From positions 1 to 32,386 of the forward strand of contig JAGVVY010000032.1 in the NCBI GenBank assembly GCA_018304585.1: a DNA stretch of 32,386 nucleotides, in the 5' to 3' direction. This document shows, piece by piece, positions 6,763 through 28,837 of the stretch. The stretch comes from Candidatus Aenigmatarchaeota archaeon. Lineage in GTDB: Archaea > Aenigmatarchaeota > Aenigmatarchaeia > GW2011-AR5. The notes under the pieces are model-generated. The model was not told where the DNA came from. It searched no databases and saw only the letters and a program-made list of their open reading frames with translations. Position 1 is the first letter of the stretch, and each line of letters begins with the position of its first letter. The translations under genes and the position numbers were made by a program.

Positions 6763-6965
6763 TTATGGCGTTCATAAAGAAAGACAAGCTGAAGGCCATG
6801 AAGGCATCGGAGATAGATGCCAAGATACAGGAGATAAAGCTCGAGCTGTCGAAGGAGATGGCGCTGAGCGAAATCGGCAGCACCGTCAAGAATCCCGGAA
6901 ACATCAGGGAAATGAGGCGGACCATAGCCAGGCTCCTGACTAAAAAGAGAGGTGGTTCACAATAG
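6759..6965 (+). CDS. rpl29: Large subunit ribosomal protein L29 (uL29)
   Basis: Short helical protein ending NIREMRRTIARLLTKKR; follows S3. Confidence 0.93.
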   Translation: MIMAFIKKDKLKAMKASEIDAKIQEIKLELSKEMALSEIGSTVKNPGNIREMRRTIARLLTKKRGGSQ

Positions 6966-7267
6966 CAGTTTGCCCGAAATGCGGTTTGCCGAAAGAGTTG
7001 TGCGTATGCGAGACGATAGCGAAAGAGTCGAGAAAAATAACGATAAGCACGGAACAGAAAAGATACGGCAAATATACAACCGTGATAAAGGGCATAGACG
7101 AGAAGCAAATAAGCCTGAGGGAAGTGACGACAAAGCTCAAATCGAAATTGGCTTGCGGGGGGACCCACAAGAACGGCGAAATAGCGCTTCAGGGAAACCA
7201 CAAGGACAAGGTCAAGAAAATACTCGTGCAGGAGGGATTTCCCGAAGACATGATAGAGCTGAAGTGA
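6962..7267 (+). CDS. Translation initiation factor aIF1 (SUI1/eIF1 family), proposed AUA start
   Basis: Frame from ATA 6962 gives (I/M)AVCPKCGLPKELCVCE, the N-terminal Cys-rich region, then SUI1 sequence to KLKSKLACGGTHKNGEIALQGNHKDKVKKIL; SD-like GAGGTG 6949-6954 with 7-nt spacer; the TTG 6986 start in the track removes the first CxxC. Confidence 0.85.
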   Translation: MAVCPKCGLPKELCVCETIAKESRKITISTEQKRYGKYTTVIKGIDEKQISLREVTTKLKSKLACGGTHKNGEIALQGNHKDKVKKILVQEGFPEDMIELK

Positions 7268-7543
7268 ATGAGAAACGCAAGGAATCTCGTGCGCCACGAA
7301 TTCATAGGCCTTGAATGCGAAATCGTGCGGTCCTCAAATCCGTCGCAAGCCGGCATCAGCGGTCGGGTGATAGACGAGGGCATGCGCATCATGATCGTCA
7401 GGACCCGGGACGGGGACAAGAAAATCGAAAAAAAGAATTCGGTTTTCCGGTTCGCGGTCGGCGGGAAGAAAGTGGAAGTGGACGGAAATTTCATAATCGC
7501 AAGGCCCGAGGACAGGATAAAGAAGAAGATATCAAGATGGTGA
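7268..7543 (+). CDS. rnp1: Ribonuclease P protein component 1 (Rpp29/Pop4 family)
   Basis: NLVRHEFIGLECEIVRSSNPSQAGISGRVIDEG...; conserved location between aIF1 and S17. Confidence 0.93.
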   Translation: MRNARNLVRHEFIGLECEIVRSSNPSQAGISGRVIDEGMRIMIVRTRDGDKKIEKKNSVFRFAVGGKKVEVDGNFIIARPEDRIKKKISRW

Positions 7544-16277: not shown

Positions 16278-16386
16278 GCGCTTGTAGTCTAACGGTAGGA
16301 CCACAGCCTTCCAACGGCTCTTTAGGAAAAGCGCCGGCGGAAAACGAAGAAAGCTGTTGATCCGGGTTCAAATCCCGGCGGGCGCA
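16278..16386 (+). tRNA. tRNA-Gly (anticodon TCC) with a ~38-nt intron at position 37/38
   Basis: Acceptor GCGCTTG/CGGGCGC, T arm CCGGGTTCAAATCCCGG, anticodon stem ACAGC/GCTGT; intron ACGGCTC...GAAGAA with CTTC/GAAG central helix and CAA/AAA bulges. Confidence 0.9.
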
Positions 16387-19093: not shown

Positions 19094-19405
19094 ATGGTCA
19101 ACCGCCGTCAATTCACGCCGGAGTTTAAGGCCCAGGTGGTGCTGGAACTGCTCAGCGGAGCGAAGAGCGGCGCCGAAGCCTGCCGGGAGCGCCAGATCAA
19201 TACCGCCCTGCTCTCCCGCTGGAAGACCGAATTTCTCCAGAATGCCGCCCGCGCCTTTAAGACCGAAGACCAGACCAGCCAGGAGCAAGCCCGCATTGCC
19301 GAGTTGGAACGGATGGTGGGTCGGCTGACCCTGGAACTGGACATCGCAAAAAAAGCCTCCAGCATGTTGAGTGGCAACCGGAGCGGCAGCGGGAAGTGGT
19401 CATGA
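19094..19405 (+). CDS. IS3-family transposase OrfA (HTH)
   Basis: RRQFTPEFKAQVVLELLSGAKSGAEACRERQINTALLSRWKTEFL. Confidence 0.93.
   Translation: MVNRRQFTPEFKAQVVLELLSGAKSGAEACRERQINTALLSRWKTEFLQNAARAFKTEDQTSQEQARIAELERMVGRLTLELDIAKKASSMLSGNRSGSGKWS
19348..19354 (+). promoter_or_regulatory. Programmed -1 frameshift site (A AAA AAA) for OrfAB
   Basis: GCA AAA AAA GCC in OrfA frame; -1 frame is open from here into OrfB. Confidence 0.85.
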
Positions 19406-20238
19406 AGCTGGCCGAGGAATATCCGGTGGCCTTGGTCTGCCAGACGCTGGGCTACCCCCGTAGCAGCTACTACCGGCCCCGCCCAGCGCCCGCAGAGCAA
19501 GGGTTGCGCCAGGAGATCCTGCGCCTGGCGGAGACCTGGCCTACCTATGGCTATCGCCGCCTGACCGCGCAACTGCGCCGGGAGGGCTGGACGGTCAACC
19601 ATAAGCGAGTCGCTCGCTTGCTGCGGGAGTTAGGGTTACAGGGCAAGGTGTGCGTCCGCAAACGGCGCACCACCAACAGTCAGCACCCCTTCCCGCGCTA
19701 TCCCAACCTGGTGCGCGACCTGGCGGTGACCTACCCCGACCAGGTTTGGGTCACCGACATCACCTATATCCGGCTCCGTAGCGGGTTTGTGTATCTGGCG
19801 GCGCTAATGGACGTGTTCACGCGGGGCATTCGGGGCTGGCAACTGGGGCGCACCCTGGGCCAGGAGTTGACCCTGGGGGCGCTGGAGCGCGCCCTGCTGG
19901 GACATCGGCCAGCGATTCACCATTCGGATCAGGGCGTCCAGTATGCCGCCACCGCCTACGTCCAGCGGTTGCAGGCGGCTGGCGCGCAAATCAGCATGGC
20001 GGCGGTGGGGAAAGCCTGGGAGAATGGCTATGCGGAGCGACTGATGCGCACCATCAAAGAAGAGGAGGTGGACTTAACCGAGTATGCGGACTTCCAGGAT
20101 GCCCACCGGCAGATCAAGCGGTTCCTGGAGGAGGTGTACATGCGCAAGCGCATTCACTCATCCCTGGGGTATTTGACTCCGGTGGAGTTCGAAACCCAGT
20201 GGCTGGCCCAGCGGGCAACCGCCCAGGTTGTTGTCTAA
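19396..20238 (+). CDS. IS3-family transposase OrfB (rve/DDE integrase core)
   Basis: YPDQVWVTDITYI, LMDVFTRGIRGW, HHSDQGVQYAA, KAWENGYAERLMRTIKEEE. Confidence 0.95.
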   Translation: MVMKLAEEYPVALVCQTLGYPRSSYYRPRPAPAEQGLRQEILRLAETWPTYGYRRLTAQLRREGWTVNHKRVARLLRELGLQGKVCVRKRRTTNSQHPFPRYPNLVRDLAVTYPDQVWVTDITYIRLRSGFVYLAALMDVFTRGIRGWQLGRTLGQELTLGALERALLGHRPAIHHSDQGVQYAATAYVQRLQAAGAQISMAAVGKAWENGYAERLMRTIKEEEVDLTEYADFQDAHRQIKRFLEEVYMRKRIHSSLGYLTPVEFETQWLAQRATAQVVV

Positions 20239-20278
20239 GCCAAGCCGTTTTTGTGTCCAGGATTTGGGGTTCACTACA

Positions 20279-21862
20279 GGCGTCACTTCTACCCTCCTAT
20301 TTGACCCCGATAACCTGTACCGGCTCACCAACAAGAAGTCTGTGTTTTCAGGTGTTGCCCTCCAGGACCTCAGCTATGCCTATGACCCAGTGGGGAACAT
20401 CACACGCATCGTTGACGCTGGATCGGAATTGCCAAAGGATGCGACTTTCGCGTATGACGAGTTGGACCGGCTTGTGGTAGCTAGGATTGAGGCTGCGGGC
20501 GAACTCATTGAAGAGAGTTACTCCTACTCTCCAGTTGGGAACATCCTGAGCAAGACAGGGATTGGGGCTTACACCTATGACGACCCTCGGCACCCCCACG
20601 CGGTAACTGAGGCTGACGACCACCGGTTCGATTATGATGCCAACGGCAACATGATTGCTAAGACCGATGGCTCCCAAGTGACGACCTTCGCATATGACTT
20701 CCAGAACCGCCTGACAAGCATCGTCACAGCTCGGGGGACGAGCGTCTACGCCTACCGGGATGATTATCACCGCGTCCAGAAGCAACTGCTTTCCGGCACA
20801 ACCATCAATTATATTGGTGAGTTGTCTGAGATTGATGAATCAGGTTTTGCCACGAACTACATATTTGGGGGCAATGACAGGATAGCGACGACGGACGAGT
20901 CCGGCATTTATTACAGTCTTACTGACCACCTTTCTTCAGCCACCTTGCAGGTCGACGGAGTCGGCACTGTTGTTCAAAAGATTGATTACCTGCCCTTTGG
21001 CGGCGAACGGGTCAATCTGCGCGAAGCTGGGTTTGAGTCCCGTTTCACGTTCACAGACCAGGAGCATGACAGCGAATCTGGGCTGCTTTATTATGGCGCC
21101 CGTTACTATGATCCTCACTATGGAAGATTTACACAGCAAGATCCCGCTCTCTGGTACCCAAAGGCGGAGGTGTTAGCTGATCCCCAATTCTTGAATATAT
21201 ATAGCTATGGAATCAACAATCCTGTACGGTTTGTGGACCCAACAGGGGAATCTGTCGTTGATTTCGCTTCAGGGTTGGGGCTGGGGATAGCACATGGTGC
21301 AATCGGAGCAGTTGCTGGATTTGTCGAAATCATCGTCGATCCTTACAGTGTTGCTCTACAGATGCGTGAGGGGATTTTTTGGAGCTTTGGCGTCATAGGT
21401 GACTACTATTCGAACCCTGAGTTGGCATTCGCCAACACAAGCAATGCTGCACAAGAGCATCTGCACAATTTCGAGATATCAAACGATTTCGAAAAAGGTG
21501 AAGTCATAGGTAACGCAGTTGGCGTTGTTGCAGCAACCGCTTTGATGGAGGGAGCCGCTCGACCCAAAGTGCCAGGTTCGATACCAGCTATTGAAGCAGG
21601 CTCGGTCACCAACGCCGAAAGAATAAAGGTAACCGAGATCGGGAAGAAGCAGGGCTGTCATACTTGTGGGATTAAAGATCCTGGCACTAAGACCGGATAT
21701 TTCGTTCCAGACCACCAACCTCCTAGTGCCTTGATCGGCGTCAATCAGGCACAAAGACTTTTTGCTCAGTGCCTACCATGTAGTAGGGTTCAAGGTGGAC
21801 AAATCAGTCAAATTGTCCAGCAAAAACTAAAAAGGTTTCAAGGAGGTTTTACTGTCCCTTAA
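20279..21862 (+). CDS. RHS/YD-repeat protein, C-terminal part, with a putative HNH-like zinc toxin tip; 5' truncated by the IS
   Basis: YD repeats (FDYDANGNMIAKTDG), core LTDHLSSATLQVD...LLYYGARYYDPHYGRFTQQDP; tip CHTCGIKDPGTKTGYFVPDHQPPSAL...CLPCSR. Confidence 0.85.
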   Translation, partial: GVTSTLLFDPDNLYRLTNKKSVFSGVALQDLSYAYDPVGNITRIVDAGSELPKDATFAYDELDRLVVARIEAAGELIEESYSYSPVGNILSKTGIGAYTYDDPRHPHAVTEADDHRFDYDANGNMIAKTDGSQVTTFAYDFQNRLTSIVTARGTSVYAYRDDYHRVQKQLLSGTTINYIGELSEIDESGFATNYIFGGNDRIATTDESGIYYSLTDHLSSATLQVDGVGTVVQKIDYLPFGGERVNLREAGFESRFTFTDQEHDSESGLLYYGARYYDPHYGRFTQQDPALWYPKAEVLADPQFLNIYSYGINNPVRFVDPTGESVVDFASGLGLGIAHGAIGAVAGFVEIIVDPYSVALQMREGIFWSFGVIGDYYSNPELAFANTSNAAQEHLHNFEISNDFEKGEVIGNAVGVVAATALMEGAARPKVPGSIPAIEAGSVTNAERIKVTEIGKKQGCHTCGIKDPGTKTGYFVPDHQPPSALIGVNQAQRLFAQCLPCSRVQGGQISQIVQQKLKRFQGGFTVP

Positions 21863-24664: not shown

Positions 24665-27600
24665 TCAATGCCAGTTCTTCGCCACCGGCAAATCCCCAGG
24701 GCTGCGAATGCTGCGCGCTCCACTGACCACAATATTCAGTGTCCCTTCCCGCCGCGACACCGCGCCGCTCACCAGCAGCAACGGCTCCCGCAGCACCAAC
24801 CGCAGCCGCTCATAAGTCTTCGGCCATACTACCAAAGGGATGTGGCCGAACTCGTCCTCCAACGTCATGAATACCGCCTTCGCCAGGGGCCGCTGCCGCC
24901 GGATCACCAACCCGGCCACCGTCACTTTGAACCCGTCAGGAAGCCCTGGCACGTCCTGGCTGGTCGAAAGGTGCTTTGGCAGTCTGGGCCGCAACTGCGC
25001 CATGACATGACCGGAAGGATGCAACCCCAGGGCGTGGTACTCCCCCAGCATGGTTTCCCAGGGAGAAGCCGGCGGCAAGTCCGGCACGTCCTGGGTCACC
25101 GGCAGGGCCAAGGTCGCCTGGTAGCCCCCGGGCCGGTACAGAAGGCCCACCTCCCACAGGGCGCGGCGGCGGTCTGGGCACAGGCCGTCCAACGCCCCTG
25201 CTTCCACCAACTTTTCCACACTCTCCCGCTTCAACCCCGTGCGCTCCATGAAGTCCCGCAGGTTAGCGAATGGGTCGCCGCTGGTCCGAGCCGTCAGGAT
25301 AGCCTCGGTTCCTGCCGGGCCGACCTCGCGCACCTGCGCCAGTCCTAGCAGCACCGCCTCGTTATGAATGGCGGCTTTGCCCAAGGAGATATTCACGTCC
25401 GGGTTCAGCACGCGGATTCCGTGCCGCCGGGCGTCCTCCTTGATGGTCTCCAGATTGTAGAAACCCATGGGCTGGGCGTTGAACAGGGCCGTGTAGAACT
25501 CCAGGGGGTAGTAATACTTCAGCCAGGCCATGTGGTAAGCCGTCACCCCGAAGGCGAAAGCATGGCTTTCCGGAAACATATAATGCCCGTTGAACTTGTG
25601 GAAGATTTTCTCCGCTACTTCGGAAGGCACGCCATGCTGGGCCGCTCCGTCCCGGAACCTCTCCCACCAGAGGCGCAGCATCCGCTCGTTGTTCCGCTTG
25701 CTGAAAGCCCGCCGTAATTTGTCCGCCTCCGCAGGGCTGAACCCAGCCAAGTCCATGGCCAGCTGATTCACCTGGTCTTGGTAGAGAATGACCCCCAGGG
25801 TACGCTCCAGAGCGCGCCGCTCGAGCGTATGGTCGTACTCCCAGGGGATTTCAGGGTGGCTGCGCCGGGCGATGAACTTGCTCACGCCCTCGTTGGCACC
25901 CACGCCAGGTCGCACTGCCGCCACCTCGAAGGCCATGTCCGTCAGGTTCCGGGGCTTGATGCGGGGGATAGTCTGCATCTGAGCCGCCGACTCCACCTGG
26001 AACACCCCGATGGTGTCAGCCTGGTGCAGCATCCGGTATACCGCTGAGTCGTTGAAGTCAATGCGGCTCAGGTCGAGGTATTTGTGGTCCTTTCGCTCAA
26101 TGAGTTGCAGGCATTCTTGCAGCTGAGAGAGCGTGCCCAGGGCCAGAAAATCAATCTTAACGAAGCCCGCCTGGTCAACGGCGTCCTTGTCCCACTGGCA
26201 GACGTACCGCCCTTCAATGGCGCTGGGCTGCACCGGCACCATCTCAGTGAGAGGAGAGGAACTGATGATCATCCCGCCAGGGTGCTGGGCCAGCAGCTTG
26301 GGGAAACCGTCTAATTCCGCGGCCAGCCGCACCAGGTCGCGCCAGCCGGGAGCGTCTAGCTTGTCCTTGAACTCCGGCAGCCGGGCCATTTCCACGGGCA
26401 GGTCCCGCCCCGCGTGGGATTCTACCCGTTGTGCCAGTCGGTCCACTTCCGCCGCCGGTAAGCTGAGCGCCAGCCCCAGATCGCGAATGGCCCCTCTGAG
26501 TTGGTAGGTGCTGATCATGCCAGTCAGAGCCGCCCGCTCCCAGCCGTACTTCTCATGCACCCGTTTGATAAGCTCCTCCCGGATGTTGCGGGGGAAGTCC
26601 AGGTCAATGTCCGGCACGTTGCCCAGATCGTCGGCCACAAAACGATCCAACGACAAGTTGAACTCCAGGGGGTCAATATGGGAGAGGCCGATCAGGTAGC
26701 CCACCAACAAGGCAACGGACGAACCCCGACCCCGGCCCGGTGGCCGTTCCTCTAGGGGTATCTCGGCGTCCGTGAGGCCCAGGTCAGTCATCACCTGCCG
26801 CGCCAGTTGGACAATGTCGTGGTAGAGCAAAAAGAACCCGGACAGGTTGTGCTTGCGGATCAGCCGGAACTCCTCTTGGAGCCGCATCCGGACTTTATCG
26901 TTGACTCCTCCATACCGTCGCTCCGCGGCCCGGACACAGATTTCTTCCAGGTAGCTTTGGGGAGTATGGCCTGCTGGCACCGGGCAATCGGGGAAGCGGT
27001 AGCCCAGGTCGCGGGTCAGGTCAAAGGCGCAGCGCTCCGCCAGGACCAGAGTGTTGCTTACCGCCTCCGGGCGGCCTCGGAAGACGTAAGCCATTTCCTC
27101 CGGCGACTTGAGGTAGAACTGGCCGTTGGGCCTGAGGTGGTGCGCCGCTTCCTCCAGGCTCTTACGGTGACGGATGGCAACCAGGGTGTCCTGCAAGTCC
27201 CGCCGCTCCGGAACGTGGTAATGCACGTTGTTGGTGGCGACGACGGGAGTTCCTACCTGGCGGGCCAGTTCTGTTAGCCGCCGGTTGTGGGTCACGTCAC
27301 CCTTGACCAGGTGCTGCTGGAGTTCCACGAAGACGTTGCCGCTGCCAAACCACTCCAGGTACTGGCGGAGGATGCTTTCAACCTCGACGAAACGTCCGGC
27401 AGTGACCAGGCGGGCCAGTTGCCCCTGCCGGCAGCCAGTAAGGAGCACCAGGCCAGGGCTGTGTTCCGCCAGACGTTCGGGGTCCAGCTTCGGGCTGCTC
27501 CGGTCACCGGTCTGGTAGGCCAGGGTGAGCAGGCGGCACAAGTTAGCGTAGCCCTGGCGGGTCTCGGCCAGCACGGTCAGGTGCGAGCCGTCGCTCAAGG

Positions 27601-28837
27601 TGACTTCGGCTCCGATTATGGGTTGAATATCCAGGCTGCGAGCGGTATGCGCAAAGGCCAAAGCTCCGCACAGGTTGTCGTGGTCGGTGAGGGCCAGAGC
27701 GGGGTAGTTCAGTTCCTTAGCCCGCAGCAGCTTTTCCCGGTCTTCCTGCGCCAGCAGGCCTTTCATGGAGATGGCTCGGTTGCAGTGGACGCAGAAGTCC
27801 GCCCCCGGCTCGTTTTCGGTTTTGCAGAAGTTGCAGGCTATGGTCGCCACGACGCCAAGGGCCTGCCGTTCCTCCTTCGCCCGGTTGCGCTGCTTGAGGA
27901 TGTATTGCTCTACCTGCTTCTCCGCCAGGTGCTCGTAAACCTTGAAGGCCCGGCTCTCCACCGAATGCCCCACCAGCTTCTTGATCATCACCTCGTTCCA
28001 GCCCGCTTCCAACAAGTGGGTGACCCGGCTGTGCCGGAGCAGGTAGCTGTACACTCTTTTCTCCAGTCGCGCTTTTTTCGCCAGGCGCTTTAAGGTGGTG
28101 TTGTACGACTCTGGTATGAGAAACCCGATGACCTGACGGCTGACGTAGCTCGACGGAAAGAGGGGCGCCGTCTTGTCCTCCCGGTAAGGATGGACATTGA
28201 GCCAGCCCTTGAGGTAGCGGTCGCTATCCATGGCGTAGATGGTTCTGATGAACGTCTTGCTCTCCCGGATTGTGATCCTGGTGTAACCCTCGGCGAAAGC
28301 CAGACTCCCGATAGTGAGCGTCAACAGTTCGGAAGGTCTGGCGCCGGACTCGTAGGCCAGAGAGATAAGGCACCTGTACATGGCGTTTCTGGTTGCGCTG
28401 ATCAGCTGGCGTACCTCCTCCTGGGTGAGGAGGTCGTTGTACGCGATGTCGAATTTCTTCACGTGCTTCTTCTCCAGCTTGATCCAGCGGTACCGCTCCG
28501 GATTGAACCGGCTGCCCTGGATGAAGCGCATGAGACGCTTGAGACCGGTCTTGTAGTCATTGACGGTTGAGCCGGCGAGACCCCGGCCATTCACCTCGGC
28601 CAGGATTTGCTGCATGTCTTCGTCGGTATACTGCGTAAAGTCCGCTTTCACGATCCCGGATATATTTCGCAGAACCGTGAGGTATTTCTTGATGCGGCCT
28701 GGGGAGATGTTTTCGGCCAGGAGGCGCTGGAGGAAGCTCCTAATGGTGGCCTTGTTCTGTTTGCTGATTTTTCGGGATTTCAGAATTTGCGCCAGCACGC
28801 GCTGATAGTTCTTGTTGGTCTTGTAGAAGCTGTCCAT
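24665..28837 (-). CDS. Fusion: N-terminal archaeal-type tyrosine integrase with zinc ribbon (~aa 1-360) joined to a DnaE2-like DNA polymerase III alpha (~aa 375-1390)
   Basis: Integrase: ESGARPSELL, YSYLLRHSRVTHLLEAG, VGHSVESRAFKVYEHL, CNFCKTENEPGADFCVHC. DnaE: YPALALTDHDNLCGALAF, GRGSSVALLVGYLIG, VPDIDLDFPRNIREELI, GVILYQDQV, OB fold. Confidence 0.9.
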   Translation of the reverse strand: MDSFYKTNKNYQRVLAQILKSRKISKQNKATIRSFLQRLLAENISPGRIKKYLTVLRNISGIVKADFTQYTDEDMQQILAEVNGRGLAGSTVNDYKTGLKRLMRFIQGSRFNPERYRWIKLEKKHVKKFDIAYNDLLTQEEVRQLISATRNAMYRCLISLAYESGARPSELLTLTIGSLAFAEGYTRITIRESKTFIRTIYAMDSDRYLKGWLNVHPYREDKTAPLFPSSYVSRQVIGFLIPESYNTTLKRLAKKARLEKRVYSYLLRHSRVTHLLEAGWNEVMIKKLVGHSVESRAFKVYEHLAEKQVEQYILKQRNRAKEERQALGVVATIACNFCKTENEPGADFCVHCNRAISMKGLLAQEDREKLLRAKELNYPALALTDHDNLCGALAFAHTARSLDIQPIIGAEVTLSDGSHLTVLAETRQGYANLCRLLTLAYQTGDRSSPKLDPERLAEHSPGLVLLTGCRQGQLARLVTAGRFVEVESILRQYLEWFGSGNVFVELQQHLVKGDVTHNRRLTELARQVGTPVVATNNVHYHVPERRDLQDTLVAIRHRKSLEEAAHHLRPNGQFYLKSPEEMAYVFRGRPEAVSNTLVLAERCAFDLTRDLGYRFPDCPVPAGHTPQSYLEEICVRAAERRYGGVNDKVRMRLQEEFRLIRKHNLSGFFLLYHDIVQLARQVMTDLGLTDAEIPLEERPPGRGRGSSVALLVGYLIGLSHIDPLEFNLSLDRFVADDLGNVPDIDLDFPRNIREELIKRVHEKYGWERAALTGMISTYQLRGAIRDLGLALSLPAAEVDRLAQRVESHAGRDLPVEMARLPEFKDKLDAPGWRDLVRLAAELDGFPKLLAQHPGGMIISSSPLTEMVPVQPSAIEGRYVCQWDKDAVDQAGFVKIDFLALGTLSQLQECLQLIERKDHKYLDLSRIDFNDSAVYRMLHQADTIGVFQVESAAQMQTIPRIKPRNLTDMAFEVAAVRPGVGANEGVSKFIARRSHPEIPWEYDHTLERRALERTLGVILYQDQVNQLAMDLAGFSPAEADKLRRAFSKRNNERMLRLWWERFRDGAAQHGVPSEVAEKIFHKFNGHYMFPESHAFAFGVTAYHMAWLKYYYPLEFYTALFNAQPMGFYNLETIKEDARRHGIRVLNPDVNISLGKAAIHNEAVLLGLAQVREVGPAGTEAILTARTSGDPFANLRDFMERTGLKRESVEKLVEAGALDGLCPDRRRALWEVGLLYRPGGYQATLALPVTQDVPDLPPASPWETMLGEYHALGLHPSGHVMAQLRPRLPKHLSTSQDVPGLPDGFKVTVAGLVIRRQRPLAKAVFMTLEDEFGHIPLVVWPKTYERLRLVLREPLLLVSGAVSRREGTLNIVVSGARSIRSPGDLPVAKNWH

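Follow-up and report, generated by a model that had tools for sequence, protein, structure and literature searches.

In bacteria, the gene infC encodes the initiation factor IF3 and starts with a near-cognate codon, AUU in Escherichia coli and AUC in Streptomyces; IF3 discriminates against this start, and the resulting negative feedback has been shown in E. coli (PMC5472188 and references therein). The same work describes sigR of Streptomyces, which starts with GTC and is repressed by IF3 (PMC5472188). In eukaryotes, eIF1 represses its own suboptimal AUG, which lies in a poor context (work cited in PMC6237735). The aIF1 of the archaeon Sulfolobus solfataricus disfavours non-canonical starts (PMC6237735; PMC8211752). 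AUG, GUG and UUG are the sole start codons named in the relevant passages of a review on archaeal initiation (PMC7531240), and in the full-text-searchable literature, subscription literature aside, we found no earlier description of an archaeal aIF1 with a non-canonical start. In prokaryotes generally, non-AUG starts are associated with stronger SD sites, and switches from AUG to AUU and from AUG to CUG are very rare (1 and 2 in 61,358, respectively; PMC5622118).

The window, that is, the whole stretch of 32,386 nucleotides analysed in this work, lies on contig C8 of the Aenigmatarchaeota genome G000, and carries a r-protein cluster with the order L3, L4, L23, L2, S19, L22, S3, L29, aIF1, Rpp29, S17, L14 and onwards to SecY. 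The names of these genes, aIF1 excepted, were given by recognition of the translated sequences; this includes the Rpp29/Pop4-like gene, which was named without a family search and served as a control. The product of aIF1 matches the SUI1 family (Pfam PF01253, E 3.9e-21) and carries the zinc knuckle CPKCGLPKELCVC, in agreement with the motif CX2CGLPX3C(phi)C that forms a zinc knuckle in Methanocaldococcus jannaschii aIF1 (PMC6237735). A search of the G000 genome, which is incomplete, found a single copy of a SUI1 protein. The features of the locus are the following:

6765 to 6965, forward strand: rpl29 (L29/uL29), an ORF whose C-terminus, KNPGNIREMRRTIARLLTKKRGGSQ followed by the stop codon, was aligned in the congeners; gene upstream of aIF1
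6941 to 6943, forward strand: in-frame TAA stop upstream of aIF1, leaving six codons before ATA for any upstream start
6949 to 6954, forward strand: SD-like GAGGTG of aIF1, with an anti-SD duplex of -11.9 kcal/mol
6962 to 6964, forward strand: proposed AUA start codon of aIF1, based on three congeners, SD spacing and the onset of coding conservation
6962 to 7267, forward strand: aIF1 (SUI1 family), (M)AVCPKCGLPKELCVCE...DMIELK, 101 codons plus stop
6963 to 6965, forward strand: TAG stop of L29, overlapping the aIF1 start as ATAG
6971 to 7012, forward strand: N-terminal zinc knuckle CPKCGLPKELCVC of aIF1, a sequence motif
6986 to 6988, forward strand: TTG, the first canonical start codon in the aIF1 frame, rejected as start
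7268 to 7543, forward strand: RNase P protein Rpp29/Pop4-like gene, with an ATG start, next in the operon

Elsewhere in the window, the minus strand carries at 24665-28837 an ORF of 1390 aa that combines a phage-integrase-type recombinase (residues 137-306) with a DNA polymerase III alpha / PHP protein of bacterial type; the GC content of this region is 0.60-0.62, compared with about 0.46-0.49 around it, and the ORF may be a genuine fusion or may result from an assembly that is chimeric with bacterial DNA. On the plus strand, an IS3-type transposase-like ORF pair followed by an RHS-repeat protein occupies 19094-21862 (GC up to 0.58), and a tRNA-Gly(TCC) gene with a 38-nt intron is located at 16278-16386. 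ARAGORN also read introns in seven or more further tRNA genes of G000, and one intron-containing tRNA-Met(CAU), which may be the initiator or an elongator, was found in this genome.

The aIF1 frame from 6941 to 6973 reads TAA AAA GAG AGG TGG TTC ACA ATA GCA GTT TGC, and is followed by CCG. The earlier note had claimed that no ATG, GTG or TTG precedes the conserved N-terminus, and both the codons and their coordinates bear this out: the three triplets are absent between the TAA at 6941-6943 and the first Cys codon. By inspection, the only single-base neighbours of ATG among these leader codons are ATA and AGG, and the latter sits within the SD site. The same note had placed ATA 6962 where Met is expected, with GAGGTG 7 nt away and the L29 stop overlapping as ATAG, exactly as we find it (the spacer extends from 6955 to 6961). 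The SD site before ATA is the strongest among the genes of the r-protein cluster that were scored, a ranking that is unaffected by the coordinates of L23 and L19e being a few bases off and by the doubtful starts of S8 and L5; its aligned spacing is 4, and that of most ATG genes in the cluster is 2-4. GCA 6965 was also considered as the start and rejected, given that it is not near-cognate and that its SD spacing would be 7, compared with 4 for ATA. Counting against ATA as a start is its partial overlap with the L29 stop in the window, which places a separate constraint on this codon. Taken with the comparison of the genus given below, initiation of aIF1 translation at AUA 6962 is nevertheless strongly supported by the sequence evidence.

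Across Aenigmatarchaeota, the start of aIF1 is usually found at codon -4 before the first Cys, in the pattern M-x-E-I/V-C. By inspection, non-canonical codons occupy the position where other homologues carry ATG in 28 genomes (ATA in 9, ATC in 9, ATT in 1 and CTG in 9). Four genomes with a possible GTG or TTG were left out of these counts as ambiguous: in one congener of the window (G001) a GTG lies just before the Cys codon and is a possible alternative start, and in g5 and two g9 genomes a GTG or TTG could likewise serve as the start, but these triplets lie inside or against the SD site and ATA is there spaced as in the clear cases. AUA, AUC and AUU are also isoleucine codons, so that their conservation alone is no proof of a start; what argues for a start rather than for Ile is the presence of upstream stops, the SD spacing and the exchange between CTG and ATG. 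ATC comes directly after a stop codon in four members of family f7, as does CTG in the Hadarchaeota locus L227; in both cases the start cannot be upstream.

A tree of 124 genomes was built from the coding sequences of the r-proteins and aIF1 after removal of the start codon. It contains a clade with an SH-aLRT support of 99, made up of 14 genomes from five families, whose aIF1 starts are exclusively ATA, ATC or ATT; CTG, ATA and ATG are mixed in its sister group. The tree requires a minimum of five switches between canonical and non-canonical starts, or of 10 when the codons are told apart, counts that do not separate gain from loss. The genus of the window is a separate case inside its own family, in which aIF1 mostly starts with ATG or GTG. 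In most of the members of this family that use ATG, this codon is located one codon further 3', at the position of GCA (6965) in the genus; the ATA of the genus is thus not the product of a simple change of ATG at the same site. That many relatives start aIF1 with ATG or GTG indicates that a non-AUG start is not essential to this gene. ATG in relatives had been named beforehand as a finding that would speak against an AUA start; it occurs in many of them, and the distribution still favours a weak start that has come and gone several times.

Similar codons were found at aIF1 in other archaeal phyla. In Hadarchaeota, CTG is present at the start position in 17 of 27 cases, mostly after GGAGGTG, and L29, S3, Rpp29 and S17 of the same loci start with ATG, GTG or TTG. 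The clade that uses only AUA, AUC and AUU, together with the CUG of Hadarchaeota, argues for the repeated gain and loss of what would be a weak start. Among 30 Asgard loci (L315-L344), ATG, GTG, ATA and CTG are mixed at aIF1; the non-AUG starts of this group are candidates read from aIF1 alone, and correspond to ATA in L318, L319, L321 and L322 and to CTG in L330, L331, L332 and L342, with no canonical start upstream. In L317, ATA is found where the relatives L315, L316 and L320 carry ATG. ATG is present in the aIF1 loci of Methanofastidiosa that were read and in most of those of Thermoproteota. A survey of Methanomethylicia and Thermococcus-like loci (L049, L066, L075, L079, L082, L091 and L369-L378) showed weak but canonical starts: TTG in all the listed Methanomethylicia loci, and in the Thermococcus-like group TTG in 6 of 10 loci with GTG likely in others.

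We consider it likely that the AUA start, as read from the sequence, is coupled to a self-limitation of aIF1 of the kind described for infC and eIF1. In such a mechanism, AUA 6962 would presumably be read by the initiator Met-tRNA through a third-position mismatch, once the strong SD site has placed this codon in the P site. The rejection of non-AUG starts by aIF1, known from S. solfataricus biochemistry and assumed here by homology, would make its own AUA efficient only when the factor is scarce: at high aIF1 levels initiation at AUA would be repressed, and at low levels it would proceed, which would constitute a negative feedback. The SD site would then provide a high potential output, of which the level of aIF1 would set the fraction that is realised, and the loop could hold aIF1 steady against the r-proteins of the same operon. 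The start codon of aIF1 belongs to the class that the factor rejects, assuming that the aIF1 of this phylum behaves in this way, and the set AUA, AUC, AUU and CUG is the one to be expected from a start-codon-fidelity loop. Support for the autoregulation itself is indirect, and comes from gene specificity within the set of genes compared, recurrence in separate lineages, the strong SD sites and the discrimination exerted by Sulfolobus aIF1.

The main alternative is that AUA is a real start whose only effect is to keep the synthesis of aIF1 low and constant compared with that of the r-proteins, with no feedback. All the sequence evidence on the start codon fits this explanation equally well, and a low-stoichiometry factor encoded in a r-protein operon would indeed have to start less efficiently than the genes around it. 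For this purpose, however, a weak SD site or a GUG or UUG codon would suffice, and the SD sites found here are unusually strong. In Aenigmatarchaeota the median SD of aIF1 is -11.5 kcal/mol for non-AUG starts vs -8.7 kcal/mol for AUG starts (p = 7e-9, with relatedness uncorrected), and the aligned spacing of the non-AUG genes is restricted to 4-5 (10th-90th percentile; extremes 4-6), whereas that of the AUG genes ranges from 2 to 12; in Hadarchaeota the CTG starts are preceded by an SD of -13.7 kcal/mol with a spacing of 6. If a poor codon is retained deliberately, compensation by stronger and narrowly spaced SD sites is what one would expect. In addition, the codons used are near-cognates of the kind that a fidelity factor rejects, and among the genes examined it is essentially only the fidelity factor that uses them. 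A constant low rate therefore seems to us a good deal less probable than self-limitation, although it is the strongest of the competing explanations.

A second alternative, which we regard as improbable, is that the start-codon rule is relaxed in general, for instance by an altered initiator tRNA, and that aIF1 is not special. The data on other genes bear directly on this point. A single mechanical rule, by which ATG, GTG or TTG was sought in the open frame ahead of the conserved N-terminus up to a limit of 30 codons, was applied to aIF1 of Aenigmatarchaeota and to 598 neighbouring genes (L29, S3, Rpp29, S17, L14 and L22). By this rule, a canonical start is missing in 23 of 133 aIF1 genes vs 4 of the 598 neighbours (Fisher p = 1.6e-14, relatedness of the genomes uncorrected), so that ATG, GTG or TTG is present in 594 of the 598 genes of the same genomes, and the Hadarchaeota neighbours are canonical as well. 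At genome scale, one 338-kb contig of G002, a congener of the window, was compared with one 440-kb contig of G015 by pairing non-overlapping conserved ORFs; of the 115 ORFs paired, aIF1 alone lacks a canonical N-terminal start, the remaining 114 of G002 having one. The rule flagged nine further ORFs in this comparison, in which ATG occurs a few codons into the alignment. What can be said for a relaxed rule is that S3 of L022, from another family, has an apparent ATT start, and that no tRNA was assigned as initiator in the incomplete G000 genome. Maintenance of the unusual aIF1 start in the genus and in the 14-genome clade, together with the canonical controls, points instead to a conserved and gene-specific feature.

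Some of the genes that seemed to lack a start were reclassified. Three of the four start-less controls, all of them S17 from a single genus, have extensions that reach past the 30-codon limit, and are not real cases; the fourth, the S3 of L022 (genome G020), has the apparent ATT start in cggtgatttattATTAAGGAAAGAATT and is possibly a second non-AUG gene in the phylum. Four apparently start-less aIF1 genes of family f23 are also false, given that they have an N-terminal extension with ATG 15 codons upstream. In this family, L167, L184, L188, L203 and L209 carry an aIF1 N-terminal extension with a second CxxC ahead of the usual zinc knuckle.

The comparison within the genus bears on the remaining alternatives. 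ATA is present at the aIF1 start in all three genomes (G000, G001 and G002). Nucleotide divergence between G002 and the window is 8% over 510 nt, and the region from -20 to +13 around ATA is identical; the upstream frame of aIF1 in G002 is open for 30 codons, yet it has no canonical start. G001 keeps ATA with an aIF1 identity to the window of 72%. From ATA to the knuckle, the codon differences among the three genomes are synonymous (GCA/GCC, GTT/GTG, CCG/CCA, AAA/AAG and GGT/GGG) and the first replacement, AAA to AGG, occurs further in, whereas the codons just upstream of ATA differ by replacements; this indicates that coding starts at or about ATA. The earlier note had proposed to follow this codon in related genomes; ATA is constant within the genus (3/3), and beyond it some relatives have non-AUG codons and many have ATG.

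These data leave very little room for a start at TTG 6986, although it is the only canonical start for this frame in the mechanical ORF list. As noted earlier from the window alone, TTG has no SD site (pairing is essentially nil, -0.1 kcal/mol) and its use would remove both cysteines of the first CxxC; besides, the codons that precede it change synonymously across the three species, it lies inside conserved coding sequence, and the zinc knuckle that the shortened protein would lack in part is kept in the homologues examined. It is just as improbable that aIF1 is produced as a fusion with L29, by frameshifting or by readthrough of the L29 stop. The ATAG overlap in the genus is compatible with such a fusion, which would require a -1 shift near AAAAAG, but TAA 6941 closes the upstream frame, the codons ahead of ATA show no conservation at the protein level, and g5 and two g9 genomes keep ATAGCA although their L29 stops 26-31 nt short of the first Cys codon. 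Inspection by eye revealed no conserved slippery site, and the combination of an open shifted frame, a slippery site and a conserved joined protein that defines programmed frameshifting was not found. Finally, an error of sequencing or assembly, or an allele that has degenerated recently, which might be suspected in a metagenome assembly with parts of the contig that look mixed in origin, is the least probable of all, since the same ATA occurs in the two other genomes of the genus, which excludes a sequencing error, and the same codon class in dozens of genomes.

An AUA start with self-limitation by aIF1 hence remains the preferred reading. Gene finders that accept only ATG, GTG and TTG are likely to mis-call the N-termini of aIF1 in such lineages, and AUA, AUC, AUU and CUG are worth considering when aIF1 starts are annotated. 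With a natural mRNA of this type, the role of aIF1 in fidelity also becomes open to experiment.

Among the known systems, infC is similar to aIF1 in that a fidelity factor has a near-cognate start with a third-position mismatch. The two factors, IF3 and aIF1, share no sequence relationship and work in different initiation machineries. Unlike infC, archaeal aIF1 uses a set of codons that includes AUA and CUG, the gene is located in a r-protein operon after L29, and the feedback is a predicted one. eIF1 (SUI1) belongs to the same family as aIF1 and both raise the stringency of start-site selection; the eukaryotic gene relies on an AUG in a weak context and on scanning, whereas aIF1 would rely on a non-AUG codon with the ribosome positioned by the SD site. 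In sigR, a non-canonical start likewise senses the level of a fidelity factor, but this is a bacterial gene and the control is not autoregulation of the factor itself. Archaea may have converged on the loop of IF3 and eIF1, with the recurrent non-AUG start of aIF1 as its sign at the sequence level. On balance, we favour the broader view that fidelity autoregulation is a theme of the three domains, in which near-cognate aIF1 starts of Aenigmatarchaeota, Hadarchaeota and probably Asgard, with compensating SD sites and repeated gain and loss, would let aIF1 set the stringency of its own ribosomes.
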